From assembly GCA_012837705.1 (NCBI GenBank), contig DUQQ01000109.1:1-64000 (forward strand): 64,000 nucleotides of DNA, written 5' to 3'. The stretch's first letter is position 1. Every line of letters begins with the position of its first letter. This stretch comes from Hydrogenispora sp. Its GTDB lineage: Bacteria > Bacillota > UBA4882 > UBA10575. Position numbers and translations under genes: made by a program. This document shows positions 19,243 to 48,100 of this stretch, piece by piece. The notes below the pieces were generated by a model. That model was not told the DNA's origin. It did not search any database and worked only from the letters and a program-made list of their open reading frames with translations.

Positions 19243-19346
19243 GAAAAAACCCCCACAAAAGGGGGATCTCTCCTACTTCTCCCTACGCCGGCATTACCCG
19301 GATCAGGTTCCAAGGGTATAATCTCAGCCCTGTCGAGCACCCCTTT
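19243..19346 (-). promoter_or_regulatory. TPP riboswitch (THI element) with terminator
   Basis: On the minus strand the sequence carries the THI-box hallmarks: GGGGTGC, CAGGGCTGAGAT, ACCCTTGGAACCTGATC and GGGTAATGCCGGCGTAGGGA. The aptamer covers about 19280-19346. A stem CCCCC-TTTTGT-GGGGG (19250-19265) followed by TTTTTT forms the terminator just before thiB. Bound thiamine pyrophosphate should favour termination and shut the importer off. Confidence 0.95.
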
Positions 19347-19358
19347 TAATTTACACCT

Positions 19359-47723: not shown

Positions 47724-47748
47724 TAAAAAAGTGGTCGCAAGCGACCAC
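47724..47748 (-). terminator. Terminator of the small unit upstream of uvrC
   Basis: Perfect 8-bp stem GTGGTCGC with GCGACCAC, two-base loop, followed on the minus strand by TTTTTT. It lies five bases after the TAA of the small frame. Confidence 0.88.
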
Positions 47749-47753
47749 TATGT

Positions 47754-47984
47754 TTACCTTCTTTCCGCAACCCGTTGCCGAGAGATGATCTCTGTATGGC
47801 TTACCTTTCCATCCCAGAAAAAACGGACCTTCAAACGTTCGCCGTTAAAAGAGACAAATTGATAAACACGAAGATCACGCCCAGCTTCCAAGAGCCGGAG
47901 ACGTCCCTTTTCCCTCAGAAAAGCAACGTTCTTCTGCCAATCACTGGTTCTATTCTTCTCTATAAAGGCAATAATCTCTTCCAG
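47754..47984 (-). CDS. Small protein-like frame without a standard start codon
   Basis: The minus-strand frame from 48023 to 47754 is open for 89 codons, bounded by TAG at 48024-48026. Its content looks coding: FISEEGEKVLEEIIAFIEKN and QKNVAFLREKGRLRLLEAG, then VRFFWDGKVSHTEII. It contains no ATG, GTG or TTG. AGGAAGGAG ends 8 bases before a CTG at 47984, which would give 76 residues. The alternatives are a gene broken by the TAG, a -1 frameshift from the overlapping 23-codon ATG frame (48031-47960), or a noncoding RNA. A consensus promoter and terminator frame it, so the region is surely transcribed. No family is recognised. Confidence 0.45.
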   Translation of the reverse strand: MEEIIAFIEKNRTSDWQKNVAFLREKGRLRLLEAGRDLRVYQFVSFNGERLKVRFFWDGKVSHTEIISRQRVAERR

Positions 47985-48071
47985 GACTTTTTCTCCTTCC
48001 TCGCTAATAAAGTAAAAGCGCCGCTATTCATTTGCCAATAAAGAACAAAATAAGGAAAAACCACCTTCGCT

Positions 48072-48100
48072 ATTATAATGAAGAGCGCGCGCCTTGTCAA
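48072..48100 (-). promoter_or_regulatory. Consensus sigma-A promoter of the small unit
   Basis: TTGACA (48095-48100) and TATAAT (48072-48077) with a 17-base spacer, perfect in all twelve positions. Expected transcript about 340 bases, from near 48065 to the terminator at 47724-47748. Confidence 0.88.

Follow-up and report, generated by a model that had tools for sequence, protein, structure and literature searches.

The window analyzed here, a stretch of 64,000 nucleotides from a Hydrogenispora sp. contig (DUQQ01000109.1), contains on its minus strand a compact transcription unit with a small reading frame (Table 1). The original prediction had placed around this frame a consensus promoter (TTGACA-17 nt-TATAAT) and a perfect hairpin with a T run, had noted the in-frame TAG that closes the frame on its 5' side, and had pointed to AGGAAGGAG 8 bases before a CTG codon. 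All of these elements are present, and the promoter matches the consensus at 12 of 12 positions. The further statement that the frame is devoid of ATG, GTG and TTG holds insofar as there is no ordinary start, but an internal TTG exists at 47891 (codon 32). Mechanical ORF calling lets a 45-aa fragment begin at this TTG, which cannot be the real start because it lies inside the conserved core. Promoter, terminator, frame, Shine-Dalgarno (SD) sequence, and CTG are all conserved, a layout that is beyond chance. The small gene is best explained as monocistronic, with its own consensus promoter and its own terminator.

Table 1. Elements of the small gene, in window coordinates.
Feature	Position	Strand	Remarks
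Upstream motif TTAACATAAAA	48106..48116	(-)	16 nt 5' of the -35 box, start to start; putative operator- or UP-element-like function
-35 box TTGACA	48095..48100	(-)	Kept as TTGACAAG in 11/11 orthologues
-10 box TATAAT	48072..48077	(-)	Spacer to the -35 box of 17 nt
Leader motif copy TTATTTTGTT	48044..48053	(-)	Degenerate TTATGTTA, inverse of the upstream TTAACATAA; putative role
In-frame TAG closing the frame on the 5' side	48024..48026	(-)	
Overlapping 23-codon ATG frame	47960..48031	(-)	Candidate -1 frameshift donor; lacks an SD
Shine-Dalgarno AGGAAGGAG	47993..48001	(-)	8 nt 5' of CTG
CTG start codon	47982..47984	(-)	Sole invariant codon, 64 columns, 11 orthologues
Coding sequence	47754..47984	(-)	76 codons + TAA (47756-47754)
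Intrinsic terminator AGTGGTCG-CTTG-CGACCACT	47724..47749	(-)	8-bp stem + T6

Orthologues of the frame, translated from the CTG, were found in 15 of 16 genomes of the same Bacillota family, with one match each, including all eight genomes of the genus. Outside the family, none was detected in a 300-genome sample of the phylum, and the named relatives are all MAGs of Bacillota (Firmicutes). The encoded proteins range from 65 to 76 aa, the latter being the length of the window protein. Eleven orthologues (L001-L011) from three genera (g1, g2, and g6) align without gaps from the CTG and were compared over 64 columns. Their identity decreases to approximately 40%, and their synonymous sites are often saturated. 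The pairwise dN/dS values (codons 2-64) range from 0.05 to 0.23. The shifted frames yield pN/pS values of ~1.5 and ~2.1, and synonymous and nonsynonymous divergence are equal in the in-frame DNA 5' of the SD. Together, these patterns show that the small frame is a real protein-coding gene.

In g1, g2, and g6 the small gene adjoins a gene for an HD-GYP protein, and uvrC is located on the other side. It is inherited vertically, with a fixed position beside the HD-GYP gene in these genera. In g2 and g6 (L042, L043, L044) a ribonucleotide reductase gene separates the small gene from uvrC, which is not the case in g1 (L048-L054 and the window), a local rearrangement. The names of these three neighbors represent a reading of their sequences. 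Elsewhere in the window, a TPP riboswitch (19261-19354, minus strand) is the only above-threshold Rfam match.

Among the 64 aligned columns, the CTG at 47984 is the only codon that never changes in the 11 orthologues from three genera. Fourteen further residues are invariant but encoded by varying codons, and two of these are leucines (columns 23 and 31). Four neighboring genes from the same genomes (uvrC, the HD-GYP gene, a porin-like gene, and an ABC ATPase gene) served as controls. Only 2 of their 74 invariant leucine columns keep a single codon, none of the 74 is CTG in all genomes, and this includes the 16 columns in which the window has CTG (0/16). The neighboring genes start with ATG, GTG, or TTG, and the start of the HD-GYP gene drifts among all three from genome to genome. 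The CTG is one point mutation away from each of these codons, yet it is unchanged. Upstream of it, the core of the SD is invariant in the 11 orthologues (positions -13 to -11, -9, and -7) and its spacing is constant; the motif reads AGGAAGGAG or GGAGG and is situated 7-8 nt 5' of the CTG. The codon immediately 5' of the CTG varies (GTC, ACC, ATT, ATC, or ACT). Every orthologue has an in-frame stop upstream, at a distance of 6 to 71 codons. The interval between promoter and CTG is free of in-frame ATG, GTG, and TTG in 7 of 11 cases, and the chance occurrences in the other four (L005, L007, L008, and L011) have no convincing SD. An ordinary start with an SD was found in none of the 11 CTG-type orthologues. 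A CTG start was one of four options among which the original prediction had not decided, and the comparative data single it out: they show that translation of the small gene starts at CTG 47984, and that in three genera selection acts on this very triplet to retain the CUG. A point against this start is that a CUG with an SD can bind 30S subunits in toeprinting and yet not serve as a start in the cell, as seen for Caulobacter dnaA (PMC8443254). Moreover, the CTG arrangement is confined to these 11 orthologues. The more distant g3 and g4 members start elsewhere, with ATG behind AGGAGG in L012 and with ATG in L015. The starts of the g3 orthologues are hard to place: ATG AGG TTG ATC of L013 and L014, whose starts are uncertain, aligns with ACG AGG TCG ATG of L015.

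The remaining options fare poorly in the same comparison. If translation began at ATG 48031, ribosomes would have to slip by -1 at GAG-AAA-AAG, near the SD-like AGGAAGGAG, to enter the protein frame. The window itself offers what such a mechanism needs, namely an ATG frame overlapping in the right phase, an A5G run at the junction, and an SD-like stimulator 5' of it. However, neither the slippery run nor the overlapping frame is conserved: the A-run has disappeared in L003 and L005 (GAAACAG), L006, L007, and L009-L011, and only three orthologues (L001, L003, and L006) have a frame of the right phase that extends across the CTG, which the other 8 of 11 lack. Moreover, ATG 48031 lacks an SD, and the invariance of the CTG would be left unexplained. 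A frameshift is thus rejected on the evidence of the relatives, and we judge the overlapping 23-codon frame to be fortuitous. Slightly more room, although still very little, is left for a start at an ATG, ATT, or ATC approximately 24 nt before the CTG, in which case the purine run would code for GEGE-like residues. At -24, L005 and L008 have an in-frame ATG, and ATT or ATC occurs nearby in several further orthologues. Against such a start stand the TAG 6 codons before the CTG in L004 and the TAA 9 codons before it in L002, the missing SD in front of the ATGs of L005 and L008, and the lack of conservation of the residues 5' of the CTG; the codon invariance and the fixed SD spacing would not be accounted for either.

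That the TAG might reflect a fresh nonsense mutation, and the frame a pseudogene or a sequencing error, was suggested by the lack of an ordinary start in the window. Homologues with an ordinary upstream start and no stop would have spoken for this reading, but an upstream stop is found in every orthologue and an ordinary start with an SD in none of the 11. The same arrangement, with stops at differing places, recurs in separate assemblies (eight genus members and three further genomes), and the gene is under strong purifying selection, so that the probability of this reading is negligible. The same is true for a noncoding RNA between promoter and terminator with an incidental frame. The compactness of the unit would suit an RNA gene, but a single frame, and no other, shows a dN/dS far below 1, Rfam has no match at the small gene, and the leader and start region show no covarying structure (consensus energy -2.06 kcal/mol). 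As the sole function of the locus, a noncoding RNA is refuted. Likewise, no shared leader structure or sequestration of the start is conserved among the orthologues.

The promoter scores 12/12 in 10 of the 11 orthologues and 11/12 in L009, and the 12/12 promoter is the best match between 44 and 52 kb of the window. A scan of this region returned 8 matches, compared with 6.0 expected by chance, and weight can therefore be given only to the perfect score and to the fact that it is conserved. The distance from the -10 box to the CTG ranges from 77 to 140 nt in the 11 orthologues. At the 3' end, a terminator of the type GTGGTC...GACCAC-T-run follows the gene in all eight genus members. On the 5' side, TTAACATAAAA occurs 14-16 nt from TTGACA in seven of these eight genomes, with one TTGACATAA variant; TTAACATAA(AA) sits at the same distance before the -35 box in the genus. 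The combination of TTAACATAAAA and TTGACA exists once per genome in seven genomes, always at the small gene, and a control with the reversed pattern gave no occurrence. The genome from which the window originates has two more TTAACATAAAA sites, neither of them before TTGACA. In most orthologues TTATGTTA or a near copy is located 3' of the -10 box, and it is degenerate in the window. TTAACATAAAA and TTATGTTA form an inverted pair around the promoter in the window and in L002-L008. The flanking motifs could represent paired operators or an UP-like element, both of which are possible. As a pair, TTAACATAAAA/TTATGTTA is a candidate operator, at which a dedicated regulator, or one that acts on its own gene, would bind.

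AlphaFold2 models of the window protein and of the L009 orthologue (mean pLDDT 84-86) agree in two helices followed by four strands (ααββββ). Searches of Pfam, NCBIfam, PHROGs, and PADLOC gave no convincing match for the small protein, tblastn against phages and plasmids gave none, and no PDB structure matched either model at E <= 0.001. A PDB sequence profile retrieved only short matches to antibody and designed proteins, which were judged spurious. The best Foldseek match of the L009 model is the NRD domain of RnlA (E 0.025-0.17, TM 0.58-0.62, ~57 residues), with a TM of 0.60 at the lowest E value of 0.025; for the window protein the corresponding E value is 0.74. In E. coli, both the antitoxin RnlB and RNase HI are binding partners of the NRD (PMC5308261). 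Membership in the RnlA NRD family (PF15935) was rejected, because the best member, L009, reaches 16.4 bits, below the Pfam cut-off of 27 bits, and the other 14 of 15 members have no match. An RnlA-RnlB toxin-antitoxin system was also dismissed, since a protein of 76 aa has no room for a HEPN RNase domain, none being fused to it, and its neighbors (HD-GYP, uvrC, and in g2 and g6 ribonucleotide reductase) do not include an adjacent antitoxin. The weak resemblance of the predicted fold to the NRD is taken to point toward a binding domain and does not establish membership. Most likely the product is a small binding domain with an alpha-alpha-beta4 fold, and by the searches above it appears to be an orphan family confined to one bacterial family.

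How could such a gene be controlled? A clue is provided by infC. In the 15 genomes with an IF3_N match (L058-L072, the window's own genome being L068), this gene has no ATG, GTG, or TTG at its start; AGGAGGTG is followed after 7 nt by ATT, or by ATA in L058, L062, and L065. The lineage therefore has the IF3-type weak-start architecture. Gene callers restricted to ATG, GTG, and TTG will mis-start infC of this family. A pattern search of the window's genome retrieved one ordinary initiator tRNA (anticodon CAT, GGG/CCC stem) and no dedicated CUG initiator tRNA (CAG form). IF3 limits initiation at non-canonical codons, including that of infC, and represses the Streptomyces gene sigR, which has a GTC start (PMC5472188). 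At the small gene, the consensus promoter would feed strong transcription, and the strong SD 8 nt 5' of the CUG would position ribosomes with good binding. IF3 would then destabilize most complexes of the initiator tRNA with CUG, resulting in an output that is low but, as with infC, goes up as IF3 becomes less active. The sites TTAACATAA and TTATGTTA around the promoter would add regulation of transcription. Initiation may be the controlled step, because a strong promoter and a strong SD are combined with a weak start codon. We are fairly confident that the best explanation is a small-protein gene that is strongly transcribed and throttled at a conserved CUG, probably through IF3. For the gating of the CUG by IF3 as such, the analogy with infC makes the chances about even.

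Alternatively, the CTG could be the start, and the weak codon might merely keep expression low, with no IF3- or condition-dependent control. This simpler reading has an appreciable, albeit minority, share of the probability. CUG is intrinsically inefficient, with a reported output of 0.86% of that of AUG in E. coli (PMC11497404), and the AUU start of S. aureus cvfC1 showed no effect of the medium (PMC13009471). On the other hand, infC starts with ATT or ATA in the same genomes, which implies IF3 discrimination, and a perfect promoter with a strong SD would be an odd route to constitutively low output; neither argument is decisive. Besides the proposed throttling at the CUG, transcription is probably regulated as well via the TTAACATAA/TTATGTTA sites, but we consider it rather unlikely that the small protein itself is the regulator of its promoter. 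Only tentatively, and with little more expectation, can the elements be merged into one picture: a small protein that binds DNA or RNA, responds to IF3, and regulates its own gene, with paired operators around the promoter and an invariant CUG, the latter being kept by purifying selection over the long term for its regulatory role. If true, this family would lie outside the searched databases and would escape any gene caller accepting ATG, GTG, and TTG only.

Individual CUG calls are usually distrusted, because this codon accounts for ~0.02% (0.024%) of bacterial starts and is hardly functional in E. coli (PMC11497404). A study of start codon evolution counted no more than a few changes to CUG (PMC5622118), and in the open literature we found no description of a CUG start that a bacterial gene has kept in more than one genus. 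The conservation of CUG in three genera suggests a deliberate throttling of output at the first step of translation. As a clean example from nature, it allows one to ask for what reason CUG is avoided or retained by bacteria, and whether regulation by IF3 extends beyond infC. Furthermore, a whole conserved protein family is missed or truncated by standard gene callers that consider only ATG, GTG, and TTG, and a simple method to find further such genes is to look, downstream of an SD, for first residues whose codon never varies.

Conserved weak starts with a strong SD are already known from infC, ccpN, cvfC1, and sigR; the new element is the invariant CUG. Like the small gene, infC (AUU, AUA, or AUC) has a strong SD and then a start outside AUG, GUG, and UUG that is conserved across species. 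However, infC occurs almost universally and encodes the discriminating factor itself, whereas the window gene starts with CUG and its protein is unrelated and restricted to the lineage. In S. aureus, infC, cvfC1, and ccpN have conserved weak starts with an extended SD (PMC13009471). Of these, cvfC1 (AUU, a 61-aa protein) and ccpN (AUA) resemble the window gene in being small or regulatory Bacillota genes with a conserved non-canonical start, a strong extended SD, and reduced initiation (PMC13009471). The window gene differs by having CUG instead of AUU or AUA, by matching no known family, and by belonging to another, uncultured lineage. Finally, Streptomyces sigR (GTC) shares the non-canonical start, an extensive RBS, genus-wide conservation, and its omission from annotation (PMC5472188). 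Repression by IF3 has been tested for sigR and is proposed for the window gene. By coincidence, a GTC stands just before the CTG in five members of the genus, but it is not conserved in the others.
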